Assembly: GCA_029552825.1 (NCBI GenBank)
Contig: JAKPDL010000217.1
Coordinates: 1 to 43,164, forward strand
DNA: 43,164 nucleotides
Direction: 5' to 3'
Source of the DNA: Bacteroidota bacterium
Lineage (GTDB): Bacteria > Bacteroidota > Bacteroidia > Bacteroidales > VadinHA17
The notes beneath the pieces are model-generated. The model was not told the DNA's origin, made no database searches, and saw only the letters and a list, made by a program, of their open reading frames with translations. Below are positions 23,809-31,709 of this stretch, piece after piece; positions within the stretch are counted from its first letter, which is position 1, and each line of letters begins with the position of its first letter. A program made the position numbers and the translations under genes.

Positions 23809-25335
23809 TTAAAGTTCGCAAAAAGTTCCGTCATCAGCCAGATTTTTGCAGGGATAACGCCACTCAAGTCCATCGCCAATAATTTTTCCTGCCTCTTCAG
23901 GTCCCCATGTACCTGCAGGGTAACCATATATTTTTATGTCCCGGTTTTCAGCCCATGCTTTCTGAACAGGTTCAAGAAATTTCCAGGCTGTTTCGACAAT
24001 ATCATCGCGCGCAAACAACGTTGAATCGCCCATTATCACATCTCCGAGCAATCGTTCGTATGCCTCTGGGACTCTAACCTTTAAAAGATCTGAATAATGG
24101 AAATCCATACTAACATTCTCGACATTGAAACCGCTGCCTGGCTTTTTTATTCCAAATTTAAGCACAATACCTTCATCAGGTTGTATTCTTATAATAAGCT
24201 GATTTATGGCCTTATTCATATCATCTACATGAAACAGAAAATGTGGTGTAGGTTTAAAATTGACAACTATCTCAGTTACTCTGGTGGGCAGGCGTTTGCC
24301 GGTCCTGATAAAGAAAGGAACACCACCCCACCGCCAGTTGTTGATAAAAAATTTCATTGCCACATAAGTTTCGGTGCGAGAAGCCGGATTTACCCCGGGC
24401 TCCTGTCTGTAAGCAGGTATACATTGTCCCATTACCTTCGAAGCTGTATACTGCCCGCGGATTACATATTCTGGTACCTCTTCCTCCTTTAATGGCTGCA
24501 ATGATTGAAATACTTTCAGCACTTCATTTCTTATAGCATCGGGATGAATAGAAGATGGCGGTTCCATTGCAGTCAACCCCACCATCTGAAGCAGGTGGTT
24601 CTGAACCATATCACGCAGTGCTCCGGCCGAGTCGTAATATCCGCCTCTGTTTTCAACACCTATGCTTTCGGCAGAGGTAATCTGAATGTGGTGAATATAA
24701 TTGCGGTTCCACAAAGGCTCAAATAAACCGTTTGAAAATCTCATAACAAGAATATTCTGGACGGTTTCCTTGCCCAGGTAGTGATCAATCCGGTATATCT
24801 GTTTCTCAGAAAGAATCCGGTGAAGGTCTTCGTTCAACTTTCTGCAGGAAGCATACTCATATCCGAATGGCTTCTCAAAAACGAACCTTATGTATCCTTT
24901 GTCTTCCGAAGTAAGCCCTGCTTCATGTAACCTGAAAGGAATCACAGAGAACAGGTCGGGAGGTGTGGCAAGATAATATATACAGTTTATTGCACCACCT
25001 GATTCGTCTTCTTTCTTCTTGATCAATGATTTAAGATCTGTGTATCCTTCATGCGAAACCATGTCTGATTTGATATACAAGAAATGCTCAAGTAGCTCTT
25101 CTATAGAGCTATCTCTTATTTCACTTCTATAGGAAAACAATTTTATACCTTCACGCATTCTTGCTCTGAACTCTTCATCTGTTAAATTTTTTCTTCCAAC
25201 ACCCACGATATAAAACCTTTCAGGTATTGAGCCCTGGATATTAAGCGAATACAGTGCAGGAGCAAGCTTTCGGTAGGTAAGGTCGCCCGTGGCTCCGAAA
25301 ATTATAATAAAAAGAGTTTCACTTTGATTACTCAT
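23809..25335 (-). CDS. zwf: Glucose-6-phosphate 1-dehydrogenase
   Basis: This 508-residue protein oxidises glucose-6-phosphate and makes NADPH. Its Rossmann dinucleotide motif is IFGATGDLTYRKLAPALY (N-terminus). The active-site signature is RIDHYLGKE in the middle, followed by MRFSNGLFEPLWNRNYI. Family motifs MVQNHLLQM and FFIRTGKRLP follow. No transit or signal sequence is seen. It is first in a minus-strand operon with pgl, and is divergent from gltB across about 210 nt to the gltB leader. Together with the transhydrogenase genes further right it points to active NADPH supply for glutamate synthase and biosynthesis. Confidence 0.97.
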   Translation of the reverse strand: MSNQSETLFIIIFGATGDLTYRKLAPALYSLNIQGSIPERFYIVGVGRKNLTDEEFRARMREGIKLFSYRSEIRDSSIEELLEHFLYIKSDMVSHEGYTDLKSLIKKKEDESGGAINCIYYLATPPDLFSVIPFRLHEAGLTSEDKGYIRFVFEKPFGYEYASCRKLNEDLHRILSEKQIYRIDHYLGKETVQNILVMRFSNGLFEPLWNRNYIHHIQITSAESIGVENRGGYYDSAGALRDMVQNHLLQMVGLTAMEPPSSIHPDAIRNEVLKVFQSLQPLKEEEVPEYVIRGQYTASKVMGQCIPAYRQEPGVNPASRTETYVAMKFFINNWRWGGVPFFIRTGKRLPTRVTEIVVNFKPTPHFLFHVDDMNKAINQLIIRIQPDEGIVLKFGIKKPGSGFNVENVSMDFHYSDLLKVRVPEAYERLLGDVIMGDSTLFARDDIVETAWKFLEPVQKAWAENRDIKIYGYPAGTWGPEEAGKIIGDGLEWRYPCKNLADDGTFCEL

Positions 25336-25517
25336 TCAACGCATAATTATTATTGATTCTCTAATATAAAATTAAAACTATAAATGAAAAAACTACTCCT
25401 TAAGTTAAATTATATTTTGCCTGATGGTTATGGAAACTAAAAATGCTTAATTAAATTTTAAATAATTAATGTTAATAAATTTCTTTTTAATTTTTCTTAA
25501 ATATTTTAAGCAAATAT

Positions 25518-25525
25518 TATATTTG
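25518..25525 (+). promoter_or_regulatory. -7 promoter element for the gltBD leader
   Basis: TATATTTG matches TAnnTTTG exactly. The spaced -33 position (25494-25497) reads TTCT, a poor match. Transcription from about 25531 would start just before the leader ORF and give a leader of about 150 nt. Confidence 0.5.
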
Positions 25526-25543
25526 TACGAAAATTTTGAGGAA

Positions 25544-25606
25544 ATGGAGGCGAAAGGCCTTTTAATATTATCAGTAATCGTTCTCAGGAGGTTCAGCGAA
25601 GGCTGA
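25544..25606 (+). CDS. Leader peptide of the gltB attenuator, 20 codons
   Basis: ATG at 25544 to TGA at 25604-25606 encodes MEAKGLLILSVIVLRRFSEG. Eight of residues 6-14 are Leu, Ile or Val. Two AGG Arg codons follow and Glu19 stands just before the end. GAGG lies only 2 nt before the ATG, a short spacing, so initiation is uncertain. The last Ile/Val/Leu codons lie on strand A of the RNA structure, and the stop codon lies in strand B. This is the layout of amino-acid leader peptides such as those of trp, leu or ilv operons. The peptide itself is likely a by-product of regulation. Too short to be certain from sequence alone. Confidence 0.6.
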   Translation: MEAKGLLILSVIVLRRFSEG

Positions 25607-25664
25607 GAATGGTATTTTAAATTTATTATAAACCGTTCTCAGCCAGTGAGAACGGTTTTTTTTT
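25579..25664 (+). promoter_or_regulatory. Transcription attenuator with antiterminator and terminator forms
   Basis: Four strands are visible. A (25579-25587, CGTTCTCAG) can pair with B (25603-25611, CTGAGAATG). B extended (25601-25612, GGCTGAGAATGG) can instead pair over 12 positions, one a G-U, with C (25633-25644, CCGTTCTCAGCC). C also forms the left arm of the terminator with D (25648-25657). A:B plus C:D gives termination; B:C excludes both and gives read-through. Which form wins should depend on ribosome position in the leader ORF. It is a pattern-based prediction. Confidence 0.75.
25631..25664 (+). terminator. Intrinsic terminator in the gltB leader
   Basis: AACCGTTCTC (25631-25640) and GAGAACGGTT (25648-25657) form a perfect 10-bp stem with a 7-nt loop, and nine T's (25656-25664) follow. 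It ends 20 nt before the chosen gltB start, so gltB must be reached by read-through. Confidence 0.9.
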
Positions 25665-25683
25665 AATAAAAATGAGGTTAACC

Positions 25684-28600
25684 ATGAAAAGTACCAACAG
25701 AGGATTATACAGAAGTGATTTCGAACATGACAGTTGTGGAATTGGGTTTGTAGCTCACATTAAAGGGCGAAAATCACATTCCATTATTTCAAAAGGACTT
25801 GAGATCTTATGTAACATGGCTCATCGTGGTGCTGAGGGCGCAGATAGCCGTACGGGTGATGGTGCAGGAATAATGATCCAGATTCCTCGTGACTTTTACC
25901 TTATTCAGGGGTATGCTTTACCTCCTTCGGGATATTTTGGAACCGGAATACTTTTCCTGCCACAAAACAGCCATGAAGCAGATGAATGTTTAAAGATATT
26001 AGGAGAAGTGGCGGCAGAAGAAGGTGTTAAAACTCTGGGGTTTCGTGAAGTGCCGAGAAATAACAGTGTATTGGGAGAACTTGCATTGATGACTGAACCG
26101 GTGATGAAACAAATTTTCATGACTGCAGATACTGAACCTGAAGTTCTTGAAAGGAAACTATATATTATCAGAAAAATAACTGAAAAAAGAATCAGGGAAT
26201 CAAACCTTGGTCAGAAAGATTTCTTTTACATTCCGAGCCTTTCGACCCGTGTTCTGGTATATAAGGGAATGTTGACGTCATACCAATTGAAGGAATATTA
26301 TCTTGACCTGAAAGATGAACGGCTTCAGAGTGCAATAGCCCTTGTACATTCAAGATTCAGTACCAACACATTCCCAAGCTGGGATCTTGCACAGCCTTTC
26401 AGATTTATTGGCCATAATGGAGAGATAAATACAATAAGGGGAAACAGAATATGGATGGAAGCACGTGAATCCATTCTTAAATCGGAAGCGCTCGACGACC
26501 TGTCGAGAATTTACCCGATTATTGAGCCTGGTAAGAGCGACTCAGCTTCGCTCGACAATGTTGTGGAGTTTCTGGTTATGAGTGGTAAATCTCTACCATA
26601 TGCAATGTCTATTCTGATTCCTGAATCAATTAACATTAAAAATCCAATACCTCCAGAACTGAGAGATTTTTATCATTATCATGCAACATTTATGGAACCA
26701 TGGGATGGTCCAGCTTCCTTGATTTTTTCTGACGGAAGGTATATCGGAGGGATGCTCGATCGGAATGGACTGCGCCCATCAAGGTTTACAATAACTTCGA
26801 ATGACCTTATTATAATGGCTTCAGAAACAGGTGTTCAGGAATTTGAACCTGATGAAGTCGTTGCAAAAGGAAGACTAAGAGCTGGTAAAATACTTCTCAT
26901 CGACACTGAAGAAGGAAAAATATATTATGATGATGAAATAAAGACAAAACTGGCATCAGAATACCCTTATGGAAAATGGATTGAAGCAAATCAGGTTCTT
27001 CTTGAAGATATCGAAACCGGACAGCATTTTTCTCCAGCTTTAGATGGGGATTATGAAAAATATCTGGTGTCATTTAATTACTCATCAGAAGATATAGAAA
27101 AGATAATTACTGAAATGGCAGCAACAGGCAAAGAGCCTATTGCTTCAATGGGCCACGACACCCCTCTGGCAGTGCTCTCCGAAAAACCATACCGGTTATT
27201 CGATTATTTCAAACAACTGTTTGCTCAGGTTACAAATCCACCTATTGATCCTATCAGAGAGGAGCTTGTAATGACACTGTCAGGATACCTCGGGTCTCTT
27301 CAGAAAAATCTTCTTGACACCACTCCTGATCATGTGAAAATGGTTAAGTTCAAAATACCGGTTATATCAAATACTTATTTCAACATAATTAAAAACCTCA
27401 GATATAAAGGGTTCTCATGCTCAGTATTTAAAATGCATTTTGAAGTTTCAAAGGGAGCCGAAGGACTAAAAGAGGCTATTGAAAAACTTTGTTACGATTG
27501 CGAAAAGGCAGTTGATGAGGGAAAGAATTATATAATCCTGTCAGACAGAGGGATAGACCGGGAGCATGCACCTATACCATCGCTGCTTGCAGTTTCGGCT
27601 GTACATCACTATCTTGTTGAGAAACGCAAAAGGATGCAAATTGACATAATTGTAGAATCGGCAGAACCCAGGGAAGTTATGCATTTTGCACTTCTTTTCG
27701 GATATGGTGCAAGCGTGATTAATCCATATATGAGTTTTGCAATAATTGAGAAACTTGTTAAAGATAAAGTAATTCAGCTTGACTACAAAAAAGCGGAAGA
27801 AAATTACATTAATGCAATCAACAAAGGCCTTCTGAAGATAATGTCGAAGATGGGAATAAGTACTTTGAGGAGCTACCGCTCATCTCAGATTTTTGAAGCA
27901 ATTGGAATTAGCAGGGATGTGGTTGACAGGTATTTTAAAGGAACACCATCACGGATAGGCGGATTAGGTCTTGAAGAGATTACACAGGAAATTCTCATTC
28001 CACATAATAAGGCATTCAGTGAAGATTCAACACCGGAGATAATAAATAAAGGTATATACTCATTTAGAAAACATGGAGAGCATCATGCCTGGAATCCGGA
28101 TACGATTGCACTTCTTCAATGGAGTACAAGGGCTGGAGATTATTCGAAATATAAAGAGTTTAGCAGAAGGGTATCTGAAGAAAATTCACGACCGACCTTT
28201 TTAAGGGGTCTGTTCAAACTGAAAGAGGGCAATCCTGTGCCTCTTGATGAAGTGGAACCTGCTGAGTCAATAATGAAGAGATTTGTGACGGGTGCTATGT
28301 CGTTTGGTTCTATAAGCCGGGAAGCGCATGAAACTCTGGCTATTGCGATGAACAGGATTGGAGGAAGGAGCAATACAGGCGAAGGAGGAGAAGACCCTGA
28401 ACGCTTCAAACCCAGGCCGAATGGTGAAAATGCACGCAGCGCCATTAAGCAGGTTGCCAGCGGACGTTTTGGAGTAACAACAGAATACCTGGTAAATGCG
28501 GATGAAATACAGATTAAAATCGCACAGGGTGCAAAGCCTGGCGAAGGCGGACAGTTGCCGGGACATAAAGTTGATAAAATAGTAGCAAAAACAAGGCATT

Positions 28601-30207
28601 CTATTCCAGGGATAACACTTATATCACCTCCCCCTCACCATGATATTTATTCTATTGAGGATCTTTCTCAATTGATCTTCGATCTGAAAAATGTTAATCC
28701 CAGAGCAAATATCAGTGTTAAACTTGTTTCGGAATGCGGTGTTGGGACTATCGCTGCAGGAGTTGTGAAAGCAAAGGCCGACATAATAACCATCAGTGGT
28801 TTTGAAGGCGGAACAGGGGCAAGCCCCATTTCCTCAATAAGACATGCCGGATTACCTCTCGAACTTGGACTTGCTGAGACCCAGCAAACACTGGTAATGA
28901 ATAACCTGAGGAAAAGAGTGAAACTTCAGGTTGACGGACAGCTGAAAACAGGTCTTGATGTAATTATTATGGCCTTACTTGGTGCAGAGGAATTTGGATT
29001 TGCAACTGCAGCACTGATTGTGCTTGGTTGTGTAATGATGAGAAAATGCCATATGAATACATGTCCTGTAGGTATTGCGACACAGAATGAAGATCTTCGA
29101 AAAAGATTCACCGGAAAAGCTGATTATCTGGTTAATTATTTCAGATTCGTAGCTGAAGAGGTAAGGGAGCTTCTTGCCCAACTGGGCTACAGGTCGCTTG
29201 ATGAAATTATCGGCAGGGCAGACCTTCTGGAACGCAATTATGAAATTAATAACTGGAAGTCCAGGACACTTGATCTTTCACCAATTCTCACATTGCCCCC
29301 CGAGGCAAAAGTTAATCCTATTAAATGTGTAGAAAAACAAATTCATAACATAGACAATGTTCTTGATAGGGAACTGATTAATCTGGCAGATAAGGCAATA
29401 AACGAAAAAGAGCCAGTATTAATCGAGAAAAAAATAAAAAATACTGATAGGTCTGTAGGTGCAATGTTATCGGGAAAAATTGCCGGAATTTATGGACAGG
29501 AAGGTTTACCTGATGGAACAATTCGATGTATATTCAGAGGCTCAGCAGGTCAGAGCTTTGGCGCCTTTCTGATTAAAGGAATAGAGTTCAGGCTGGAAGG
29601 AGATTCAAATGATTACCTTGGTAAGGGATTATCAGGAGGCCGGATTATTGTTATACCTCCCGAAGGCTCGTTATTCGAACCTGACAAGAATATAATAACC
29701 GGTAATACTGTTCTCTACGGAGCTACAAGCGGAGAAGTCTATATTTCAGGAATGGCAGGAGAAAGATTTGCTGTAAGAAACAGCGGAGCAATTGCTGTAG
29801 TTGAAGGAGCAGGAAACCATTGCTGCGAGTACATGACAGGTGGCAGAGTGGTTGTTCTGGGTAGTACCGGTAACAATTTTGCAGCAGGTATGAGCGGTGG
29901 AATTGCTTATGTACTTAACGAAACCGGTAAGTTTGATTATTTCTGCAACATGGGTATGGTTGAACTATCACTTGTTGAAGATAGAAGCGATGTACATGAA
30001 CTCAAAGGATTGATTGCAAGACACTATTATTACACAGGCAGTAAAAAGGCAAAAATGATACTCGATGATTTTGATAAATATCTTGAAATGTTTATTAAAG
30101 TAATACCATATGAATACAAAAAGGTTTTGCATGAACAGAAACTTGAAGAAATCAAGAAGAAAATTGCTGACCTTGAGTTAGATGTGGAGTTTGTTAGAGG
30201 ATCATAA
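25684..30207 (+). CDS. gltB: Glutamate synthase, large (alpha) subunit
   Basis: This 1507-residue enzyme transfers the amide nitrogen of glutamine to 2-oxoglutarate. The N-terminal class II glutaminase begins after a short propeptide: Cys18 in HDSCGIGFVAHIKGRKS is the nucleophile. A central domain follows, and then the FMN-binding synthase barrel (motifs MSFGSISREAHETLAIAMNR, GEGGEDPERF, KPGEGGQLPG, ISGFEGGTGASP). The iron-sulfur cysteines are in CVMMRKCHMNTCPVGIATQ. The C-terminal beta-helix has GXGXG repeats (GLSGGRIIV, MAGERFAVRNSGA, MTGGRVVVLG). I use the ATG at 25684, 6 nt after GAGG; an in-frame ATG at 25672 overlaps that site. It leads the gltBD operon behind an attenuator. Confidence 0.97.
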   Translation: MKSTNRGLYRSDFEHDSCGIGFVAHIKGRKSHSIISKGLEILCNMAHRGAEGADSRTGDGAGIMIQIPRDFYLIQGYALPPSGYFGTGILFLPQNSHEADECLKILGEVAAEEGVKTLGFREVPRNNSVLGELALMTEPVMKQIFMTADTEPEVLERKLYIIRKITEKRIRESNLGQKDFFYIPSLSTRVLVYKGMLTSYQLKEYYLDLKDERLQSAIALVHSRFSTNTFPSWDLAQPFRFIGHNGEINTIRGNRIWMEARESILKSEALDDLSRIYPIIEPGKSDSASLDNVVEFLVMSGKSLPYAMSILIPESINIKNPIPPELRDFYHYHATFMEPWDGPASLIFSDGRYIGGMLDRNGLRPSRFTITSNDLIIMASETGVQEFEPDEVVAKGRLRAGKILLIDTEEGKIYYDDEIKTKLASEYPYGKWIEANQVLLEDIETGQHFSPALDGDYEKYLVSFNYSSEDIEKIITEMAATGKEPIASMGHDTPLAVLSEKPYRLFDYFKQLFAQVTNPPIDPIREELVMTLSGYLGSLQKNLLDTTPDHVKMVKFKIPVISNTYFNIIKNLRYKGFSCSVFKMHFEVSKGAEGLKEAIEKLCYDCEKAVDEGKNYIILSDRGIDREHAPIPSLLAVSAVHHYLVEKRKRMQIDIIVESAEPREVMHFALLFGYGASVINPYMSFAIIEKLVKDKVIQLDYKKAEENYINAINKGLLKIMSKMGISTLRSYRSSQIFEAIGISRDVVDRYFKGTPSRIGGLGLEEITQEILIPHNKAFSEDSTPEIINKGIYSFRKHGEHHAWNPDTIALLQWSTRAGDYSKYKEFSRRVSEENSRPTFLRGLFKLKEGNPVPLDEVEPAESIMKRFVTGAMSFGSISREAHETLAIAMNRIGGRSNTGEGGEDPERFKPRPNGENARSAIKQVASGRFGVTTEYLVNADEIQIKIAQGAKPGEGGQLPGHKVDKIVAKTRHSIPGITLISPPPHHDIYSIEDLSQLIFDLKNVNPRANISVKLVSECGVGTIAAGVVKAKADIITISGFEGGTGASPISSIRHAGLPLELGLAETQQTLVMNNLRKRVKLQVDGQLKTGLDVIIMALLGAEEFGFATAALIVLGCVMMRKCHMNTCPVGIATQNEDLRKRFTGKADYLVNYFRFVAEEVRELLAQLGYRSLDEIIGRADLLERNYEINNWKSRTLDLSPILTLPPEAKVNPIKCVEKQIHNIDNVLDRELINLADKAINEKEPVLIEKKIKNTDRSVGAMLSGKIAGIYGQEGLPDGTIRCIFRGSAGQSFGAFLIKGIEFRLEGDSNDYLGKGLSGGRIIVIPPEGSLFEPDKNIITGNTVLYGATSGEVYISGMAGERFAVRNSGAIAVVEGAGNHCCEYMTGGRVVVLGSTGNNFAAGMSGGIAYVLNETGKFDYFCNMGMVELSLVEDRSDVHELKGLIARHYYYTGSKKAKMILDDFDKYLEMFIKVIPYEYKKVLHEQKLEEIKKKIADLELDVEFVRGS

Positions 30208-30284: not shown

Positions 30285-31709
30285 ATGGCTGACCCGACAG
30301 GTTTTTTAAAGGTTAGACGCAAGGAAGCAGGCAACAGGCCTATACATGAACGAATATGCGACTTCAGTGAAGTCGAGCAGGTACTTAACAGTGATGACCG
30401 TATGCTTCAGGCATCGAGATGTATGGATTGTGGCACACCCTTCTGCCACTGGGCATGCCCGCTCGATAACCTGATACCTGAGTGGAATGACCTGCTCTGG
30501 AGGGGAGAATGGAAAAGTGCCTATAACAGGCTTAACGCAACAAATAATTTTCCTGAATTCACCGGAAGGATATGCCCTGCTCCTTGCGAACATGCATGTG
30601 TTCTGAATATTAACGATGAACCTGTGACAATCAGAGAAAATGAAGTCGCTATTTCTGAACGAGCTTTTACAGAAGGTTATATCAAACCTAAACCTCCACG
30701 TAAAAGAACAGACAAGAGAGTGGCAGTTATCGGCAGCGGACCTGCCGGACTGGCAGCAGCAGACCTTCTTAATAAATGGGGCCATAACGTAACAATATTT
30801 GAAAAAAACAATAAAGCCGGAGGCCTTCTCAGATACGGAATCCCCGACTTTAAACTCAGTAAAGTCACAATTGATAGACGTCTTAATTTAATGACCTTTG
30901 AAGGTGTTGAAATAAGAACAGGAACTGAGATTGGTAAGGATATTCCTGGCAGGGTATTATTAAGCTCATACGATGCTCTATGTCTGGCAATAGGTGCCAT
31001 GAAACCCCGTGACCTCAACATTGAAGGACGGGATCTTAATGGAATATACTTTGCCATGGATTTCCTCACACAACAAAACAGAATAAATGACGGAGAAATA
31101 ATTCCTGCTCAAGAAAGAATATCCGCTGAAGGACTTAATGTAATTGTACTTGGAGGTGGCGACACCGGATCAGACTGCGTGGGTACTGCTATACGTCAAA
31201 AAGCAAAGAGTGTCACCCAGATTGAAATAATGCCAATGCCTCCACTGAAAAGATCGCCAAACAATCCATGGCCATATTATGCAAAAATCCTTAAAACATC
31301 AACTTCACACGAAGAAGGCTGTGTAAGGATGTGGAGTTTATCAACTAACAGATTTATAGGTGAAAATGGTTATTTAACAGGTATAGAAGTTGAAGATGTT
31401 GTTTGGGAATCATCCGGCGGACAACATATAATGAAACCACTCCCGGAAACACGAAGAATAATACCAGCTGATATGGTAGTGCTTGCTCTCGGTTTTATGC
31501 ATCCTGCTCTTGAAGGCCTTATTGAAGAACTGGGATTGGAACTTGATGACCGTAAAAACATCAAAACAGACAGAAATCTTCATACCAGTGTGCGGGGTGT
31601 TTTCGCTGCAGGTGACGCTGTATCTGGCGCAAGCCTTGTTGTTAATGCCATTGCTTCAGGAAGAAAAGCGGCAATGGCAATTGACAGGTATTTGCGCAAA
31701 GAATTCTAA
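30285..31709 (+). CDS. gltD: Glutamate synthase, small (beta) subunit
   Basis: This 474-residue protein passes electrons from NADPH through FAD and Fe-S clusters to GltB. The N-terminal cysteine-rich domain has CMDCGTPFCHWACPLDN and GRICPAPCEHACVL, eight Cys that hold two 4Fe-4S clusters. FAD binds at AVIGSGPAGLAAADLLNKWG and NAD(P)H at VIVLGGGDTGSDCVGTA. The C-terminal FAD motif is GVFAAGDAVSGASLVVNAIA. It follows gltB after 77 nt with no terminator between, so the two are co-transcribed under the same leader. Length and motif order are normal for bacterial GltD. Confidence 0.97.
   Translation: MADPTGFLKVRRKEAGNRPIHERICDFSEVEQVLNSDDRMLQASRCMDCGTPFCHWACPLDNLIPEWNDLLWRGEWKSAYNRLNATNNFPEFTGRICPAPCEHACVLNINDEPVTIRENEVAISERAFTEGYIKPKPPRKRTDKRVAVIGSGPAGLAAADLLNKWGHNVTIFEKNNKAGGLLRYGIPDFKLSKVTIDRRLNLMTFEGVEIRTGTEIGKDIPGRVLLSSYDALCLAIGAMKPRDLNIEGRDLNGIYFAMDFLTQQNRINDGEIIPAQERISAEGLNVIVLGGGDTGSDCVGTAIRQKAKSVTQIEIMPMPPLKRSPNNPWPYYAKILKTSTSHEEGCVRMWSLSTNRFIGENGYLTGIEVEDVVWESSGGQHIMKPLPETRRIIPADMVVLALGFMHPALEGLIEELGLELDDRKNIKTDRNLHTSVRGVFAAGDAVSGASLVVNAIASGRKAAMAIDRYLRKEF

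Follow-up and report, generated by a model that had tools for sequence, protein, structure and literature searches.

Glutamate synthase is a principal route by which many bacteria bring nitrogen into amino acids, and to our knowledge little is known of how it is controlled in Bacteroidota. The DNA analyzed here (the window, a 43,164-nucleotide stretch of a Bacteroidota genome) carries gltB behind a leader for which a preliminary description had proposed mutually exclusive hairpins and a terminator. The locus thus raises the question of whether this leader is a transcription attenuator and, if so, which amino acid it would sense.

Strands and Terminator of the gltB Leader

The leader sits in a divergent gap, with the glucose-6-phosphate dehydrogenase gene on the minus strand (23809-25335) and gltB and the probable gltD running forward. 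Its features are as follows.

25518-25525, forward strand: -7 box TATATTTG, fitting TAnnTTTG; predicted promoter of the leader transcript
25579-25587, forward strand: strand A CGTTCTCAG, as read from the sequence; pairs with B, as a putative anti-antiterminator or pause hairpin
25601-25612, forward strand: strand B GGCTGAGAATGG, 5' arm of the antiterminator; contains the leader stop codon 25604-25606
25633-25644, forward strand: strand C CCGTTCTCAGCC, common to antiterminator and terminator
25648-25657, forward strand: strand D GAGAACGGTT, 3' arm of the terminator
25656-25664, forward strand: T-tract of nine T, intrinsic terminator
25684-30207, forward strand: gltB, glutamate synthase large subunit, the putatively regulated gene; Pfam GATase_2, Glu_syn_central, Glu_synthase and GXGXG
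30285-31709, forward strand: probable gltD, glutamate synthase small subunit; Pfam Fer4_20 and Pyr_redox_2

Reading of the sequence confirmed the four strands and the nine T's where they had first been placed. The promoter prediction is based on TAnnTTTG, which we take to be the Bacteroidota -7 box consensus, and a similar box was seen by eye 5' of the leader ORF in relatives. The GltB start that agrees with relatives is ATG 25684, another in-frame ATG lying at 25672; 19 nt lie between the last T of the tract and ATG 25684, in keeping with the short distance first claimed. The downstream gene, in the same direction and 77 nt 3' of gltB, is provisionally named gltD from its domains and position. 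In a separate observation, f8-type gltB leaders (L007-L013, L017, L020, and L021) shared, ahead of the -7 box, a conserved stretch resembling TTTTGATTCGTAAT that may be a -33 element or a regulator site.

When only the named arms were allowed to pair, helix energies were -11.7 (A:B), -21.9 (B:C), and -14.7 kcal/mol (C:D), making B:C, which spans 12 positions, the strongest helix. The fold of 25532-25664 reached -41.6, whereas shuffles averaged -25.9 (z -5.0), and none of 200 shuffles was as good; with the complementary strands present, this bears out the proposal that A:B plus C:D and B:C are exclusive hairpins. A terminator scan of 25300-25800 returned two sites, including the one in the gltB leader, compared to a shuffle mean of 0.1.

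Conservation Before gltB

The regions upstream of gltB in 21 relatives and in related genomes, among which GltB was matched in 44 of 60, had the arrangement TGAGAATGG ... CCGTTCTC ... GAGAACGG-TTTTTT, with a short ORF ending at B. Five genomes of the window's genus gave no GltB match in the related-genome search. A letter pattern for this layout was held by 49 of 51 loci, the other two being L034 (a GGATGG variant) and L038 (without an attenuator); a wrong-strand match in L004 was excluded, and 43 distinct leaders were left once six duplicates had been dropped. The first alignment and the covariance model R1 were built from the pattern-holding loci, and the invariance of the core letters is partly by construction.

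Of the pair cells in the 43 distinct leaders, 93.5% were paired for B:C and 98.8% for C:D. Three C:D pairs were changed on both sides (shuffle mean 1.6; reached by 32 of 500 shuffles). Covariation of B:C within this alignment was no better than in shuffles, because B hardly varies. The check by conservation among relatives does not refute the attenuator, B, C, and D being conserved, although the letter covariation of B:C did not rise above shuffles.

A detector independent of the letters, which required a terminator stem of at least 7, a T-tract, and at least 6 pairs between B and C, picked out 49 of 148 gltB upstream regions, compared to 3 of the 148 reverse complements, and gave the same picture as the letter pattern. 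Further regions came from four family searches (5 genomes of f65, 23 of f43, 28 of f8, and 5 of f38), and five of the 124 GltB-bearing genomes (G229, G262, G294, G312, and G344) lay outside the upstream set. An attenuator preceded gltB in 31 of 32 regions (31 genomes) of the window's genus and in 31 of 34 in f1 as a whole, both f1 members from other genera being without one. It was also found in five other families of the order: f8 (20/24), f43 (18/21), f65 (4/5), f38 (2/5), and f15 (3/3, to which locus L019 was added on the basis of its leader). None of the other 36 of the 44 families in the first upstream set was positive with the letter-free detector, and single attenuator-like matches in f19 and f5 were rejected as spurious, having low scores and no fitting leader ORF. 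This recurrence before gltB supports the suggestion, made from the window alone, that the attenuator may control glutamate synthase. One genome of the genus, G006 (81% complete, 4% contamination), had two gltB genes on contigs C266 and C141, both with an attenuator, which could reflect a mixed assembly.

The least conserved part was A:B. The probability that B pairs with the leader was 0.90 in the window and 0.44 with shuffled leaders, and it was also above shuffled in the genus (0.61 vs 0.49), f8 (0.63 vs 0.37), and f65 (0.75 vs 0.53). It was no higher than with shuffled leaders in f43 (0.47 vs 0.46), f38, and f15, by which a role for A as a universal anti-antiterminator was rejected. The hairpin set first described is confirmed in the window, and B, C, and D are strongly conserved, but a strong A:B is shared with the nearest relatives and not with all. 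A different element, a conserved G-rich loop (like GGTATCGGATTAGGGATGA) between B and C, was seen in L028, L037, L040, L044, and others. It belongs to part of the genus only, is absent from the window, and persists even behind an in-frame stop; it could be a two-layer G-quadruplex or a site of RNA contact.

The Leader Reading Frame

A short ORF that had gone unmentioned in the preliminary description begins 19 nt past the -7 box, and its TGA (25604-25606) falls within strand B. The following features lie within it.

25544-25606, forward strand: leader ORF MEAKGLLILSVIVLRRFSEG, 20 codons plus TGA, from ORF reading; the proposed sensor, with its stop inside B
25559-25585, forward strand: nine-codon run, eight of them Ile/Leu/Val (LLILSVIVL); a possible second set of control codons
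25586-25591, forward strand: tandem Arg codons AGG AGG, the proposed control codons, 19 and 16 nt before GAGAATGG

With a frame test anchored on the letters of B alone, 72 of 79 gltB attenuators could be placed. Of these 72, 68 had a stop codon where B begins, mostly TGA, with TAG or TAA where the first letters of B differ, and four were without one. The frame of that stop was open for 16 codons in 64 of the 68, whereas the two alternative frames were open in 13 and 12. A separate count of 47 stops at B in 47 ORFs is weaker, as those ORFs were selected as open and the result is partly by construction. Judged from these sequences, the leader reading frame is under selection. With the exclusive strands conserved and a leader ORF that ends in B, the comparison first drawn with attenuators of the trp/his/leu type is upheld, and the gltBD leader is very probably a ribosome-mediated transcription attenuator of the trp/his/ilv type.

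Two smaller points concern the end of the ORF. At 25604-25612 of the window and in relatives, TGAGAATGG is more conserved than pairing requires, and its T is kept even where C has a C opposite (L079 and L273). An ATG lies 2 nt after the leader stop; a reinitiation or pause signal is conceivable.

The Codon 19 Nucleotides Before Strand B

Across gltB leaders, the codon 19 nt before B was Lys, Arg, His, Asn, or Gln in 71 of the 73 scored. In the window's genus all 31 scored leaders had an in-frame Arg codon exactly 19 nt away, always AGG and never AGA or CGN. Of 19 leaders of f8, 17 had Arg, Lys, or Asn and the other two Gly and Ile; all 15 of f43 had Lys, Asn, or Arg, all 4 of f65 had His or Gln, and Lys was present in both scored leaders of f38 (2/2) and of f15 (2/2). 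For the last four families together, 23 of 23 codons were nitrogen-rich against 7.9 expected, a result reached by 0 of 2000 dinucleotide shuffles, which is not a plain probability given that the residue class was named after data inspection and the sequences are related. The position itself had been chosen from the genus, and 12 of the 23 codons were known before the class was named. No other position up to 46 nt was above 0.57 nitrogen-rich in these families, and synonymous variants occurred there at 19 nt (AAT/AAC, AAA/AAG, and CAT/CAC).

Six of the 79 attenuators were unscored at 19 nt and were read by eye. Four had a nitrogen-rich residue at or near the position, namely L019 (His), G833 (Arg), G826 (Lys), and G403 (Lys at 18 nt; its leader does not stop at B); the two misses were G828 (Ser) and G815 (Ile/Glu at 17/20 nt).

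In the genus, AGG held its 19-nt distance to B even where the stop had moved 3-9 nt upstream, which fits a rule of ribosome position and not a peptide C-terminal motif. AGG is not a rare codon, since it makes up 122 of the 510 Arg codons in 25 window ORFs. Its exclusive use for Arg at this position could reflect an RNA-level constraint or a particular tRNA in the genus. Glu and Gln codons were scarce in the gltB leaders of the genus (0.026 vs 0.063 in shuffles), a depletion on which product sensing through these codons was rejected.

The position of the Arg codons was also considered in a stall model in which the ribosome was assumed to mask 11 nt beyond the A-site codon. Modeled stalls at the codons tried from 25559 to 25589 gave the B:C fold, with the exception of 25580, for which the full-length minimum has C:D, although until D has been made the energy is the same as for B:C. 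Stalls at codons from 25592 on gave C:D, and the two AGG codons are the last stall sites that would still leave B free. On balance, the control codons of gltB leaders are somewhat likely to be those of nitrogen-rich amino acids; the chances that Arg is the principal signal read by the window's leader appear about even.

Related Attenuators Before Other Genes

The covariance model R1, built from gltB leaders only, also matched attenuators before ilvD and leuA in other families when the order was scanned, and before ilvE, leuA, ilvD, ilvB, and asnA when the class was scanned. Its matches with weak E-values (96 of 393 genomes of the order at 0.01; 23 of 395 of the class at 0.001) included many plain terminators, and a match was counted as an attenuator only after its leader and gene had been read, for 30 order-scan and 22 class-scan loci. 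None of the 22 class-scan loci read lay before gltB. Ten downstream genes were typed with NCBIfam and the remainder were named from their translated starts. The typed genes encoded dihydroxy-acid dehydratase (L097, L126, and L079), 2-isopropylmalate synthase (L082 and L277), branched-chain transaminase (L273, plus L276 below the cut-off), acetolactate synthase (L282), aspartate-ammonia ligase (L274), and aspartate kinase (L098). A B strand of the TGAGAATGG type, together with leaders filled with Ile, Leu, and Val (I/L/V), preceded ilvD, leuA, and ilvE in other families.

The window's own genome carries two such elements. One lies before ilvD (L126; G000:C60, upstream of 23249), with the leader MNRFLLLTISIIIILLLFRR and a CCGG-type stem, and is common to relatives in the genus. 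The other precedes an aspartate kinase gene (L098; G000:C213:8146-8213) and has a leader with a Thr run, MINVLYTGTGTTTTTGTLLYRGCLAL. In another family of the class, an Asn-rich leader, MMNFYFNNNFNYATPPGGD, and an attenuator precede asnA (L274, about 1416-1620).

The pairing of B with C was assessed by swapping strands between gltB and ilvD, in place of the within-alignment covariation of B:C, which showed no signal. Within the genus, own B:C runs were 8-11 bp in 31 gltB leaders and 7-10 bp in 28 ilvD leaders, compared to only 3-5 and 4-6 bp for the swapped combinations (19 genomes with both). The letter differences between gltB and ilvD are thus matched within one genome, which supports both B:C and C:D.

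These loci also served as a calibration of the control position. All 28 scored ilvD leaders of the genus (30 looked at) had an I/L/V codon 18-19 nt before B, as did, at 18-20 nt, all 17 of the retained leaders of branched-chain amino acid (BCAA) genes in other families. The latter set comprised 25 loci, of which 6 were unscored and 2 of the 19 scored (L086 and L280) were dropped as being in the wrong register; its frame was picked by I/L/V content, which biases it to I/L/V, and the ilvD leaders of the genus are the cleaner calibration. The aspartate kinase leader of the window's genome had Thr at 17 and 20 nt, and the asnA leader had Asn at 21 nt.

Proposed Mechanism

Termination, stalling, the direction of the response, and the amino acid sensed are predicted in the model proposed here from the strands, their conservation, the ORF, and the codon pattern. 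RNA polymerase would make the leader while a ribosome translates the 20-codon peptide. With charged tRNA for the control codons plentiful, the ribosome would reach the stop in B and cover B, and C:D would terminate transcription before gltB. A stall at control codons upstream of 25592 would instead cover A, B:C would pair, C:D would be blocked, and gltBD would be transcribed. With no ribosome on the leader, A:B could form first and termination would be favored. The decisive control codon would be that about 19 nt before B, which is Arg in the genus and part of the tandem AGG AGG in the window. Glutamate gives nitrogen for Arg, His, Lys and, via glutamine, Asn and others; a shortage of a nitrogen-rich amino acid, as a proxy for nitrogen shortage, would then turn gltBD on. 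A second input may come from the I/L/V run seen in the window's genus. As a whole, an attenuator on gltBD with a nitrogen-rich control codon about 19 nt before B is probably the best explanation of these data.

A wider reading is that a single re-codable switch (TGAGAATGG / CCNTTCTC / terminator) stands before different Bacteroidota operons and is tuned by the codon at about 19 nt, to Ile, Leu, or Val for BCAA genes and to nitrogen-rich residues for gltBD; this could be right or wrong with similar probability. Much the same weight attaches to its corollary, that the amino acid (Arg, Lys, Asn, His, or Gln) has been exchanged between lineages with the switch unchanged. If this reading is true, gltBD would follow the overall nitrogen wealth of the cell through aminoacyl-tRNAs, and not its own product.

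Other readings of the same leader differ in what is sensed. The position table of the genus had nitrogen-rich codons at 19 (1.00) and 22 nt (0.52) and I/L/V codons at 16, 25, 28, and 40 nt (0.68-0.77), which is consistent with a multi-amino-acid attenuator: stalling could then occur both at Arg (19 nt) and at Ile/Leu/Val codons (13-16, 25-28, and 40 nt), and the leader would act as a general sensor of amino acids and nitrogen. The alternation of hydrophobic and basic residues could, however, reflect the peptide itself or chance within one clade, and this reading for the genus is held as a tentative, rather doubtful one.

It is unlikely that the attenuator instead senses BCAAs through the Ile/Leu/Val run, with gltBD in the BCAA regulon and the Arg codons incidental. 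Eight of ten codons in the window's leader are I/L/V, which was matched by 2 of 5000 shuffles, and these eight sit where modeled stalls would mostly free B; I/L/V codons are also enriched throughout the genus (0.340 vs 0.278 in shuffles, z 3.8), and the B strand is the same as in the ilvD, leuA, and ilvE attenuators of other families. This enrichment is nevertheless weak beside that of the ilvD leaders of the genus (0.562 vs 0.311, z 13.6), and 15 gltB leaders of other families were not I/L/V-rich (0.211 vs 0.220). Moreover, all 31 scored gltB leaders of the genus have Arg and none has I/L/V at 19 nt, whereas BCAA leaders have I/L/V there, and it was these 19-nt data that demoted BCAA sensing from the first-choice reading to a rival.

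Another alternative takes the invariant AGG as an RNA or ribosome-binding element, for example in the A hairpin, so that the attenuator would measure leader translation as such. That AGG is the only Arg codon used there in the genus, at a constant distance to B when the stop shifts by 3-9 nt, agrees with this view. However, a like B strand is accompanied by AAA, AAG, AAT, AAC, CAT, CAC, or CAG in other gltB leaders and by I/L/V codons in BCAA leaders, the 31 genus leaders all have AGG in frame, and a control codon would need a fixed distance to B as well, making an RNA element improbable. A protein- or ligand-binding leader (a PyrR-like site or a riboswitch) governing the terminator is highly improbable: a sub-threshold Rfam PyrR site match covers 25575-25665 and a gltD-associated riboswitch candidate has been described (PMC8632094), but the conserved parts are the reading frame, the stop codon, and the codon position, Rfam 15 gave 0 families at gathering score in the window, and the PyrR-like site (RF00515; 34.8 bits vs gathering 54) was rejected as a single sub-threshold match that was not among the matches at the loci of 8 relatives.

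Comparison With Known Systems

Enteric trp, his, leu, and ilv attenuators have a leader peptide with control codons, strands 1-4, and a stop at strand 2. The gltB leader resembles them in its control codons, its strands A-D, the stop at B, and the exclusive antiterminator and terminator. It differs in its target, gltBD, and in its control codon, which is Arg, Lys, His, Asn, or Gln and not that of the operon's own product. The usual, not strictly defining, trait of such attenuators, that the amino acid sensed is the product of the operon, was not found here, Glu/Gln codons being depleted. The attenuator of gltB is therefore of the peptide kind, with an unusual target and an unusual class of sensed amino acid. 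Classical attenuators report the product of their own operon; that of gltBD would report downstream amino acids that are costly in nitrogen, a different logic.

The Bacteroid-trp RNA (RF01692), which we take to be a trp leader, concerns another gene, and the window had no Rfam match at gathering score. It has been listed as a putative cis-regulatory RNA of Bacteroidetes (PMC2864571). In Flavobacterium psychrophilum, of the same phylum, there are clues of leader-peptide attenuation before amino-acid operons, in a report whose main text contains neither "gltB" nor "glutamate synthase" (PMC9723704). RNA control of glutamate synthase genes is represented by the gltD motif riboswitch candidate and the glutamine riboswitch (PMC8632094), which are ligand-binding candidates, unlike the gltB peptide attenuator; a hairpin of the gltD motif may occlude the ribosome-binding site, and the account of the motif given there mentions no leader ORF. 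Leader-like sORFs have been noted in Bacteroides (PMC7366714), an attenuator survey by Lopatovskaya et al. (2010) is cited in PMC4833913, and ilvB1 leader peptides of other bacteria are mentioned in PMC13236596. In the freely available main texts searched, a gltB peptide attenuator in Bacteroidota was not found, in line with the earlier statement that none was known, and prior mention elsewhere is possible.

The ilvD, leuA, and ilvE attenuators of Bacteroidota found here have the same layout, with about 19 nt from control codon to B and, in other families, TGAGAATGG; they differ in having I/L/V at the control position and, for ilvD in the genus, stems with a CCGG core. The rule of position 19 suggests a simple sequence readout of the amino acid sensed by Bacteroidota attenuators.
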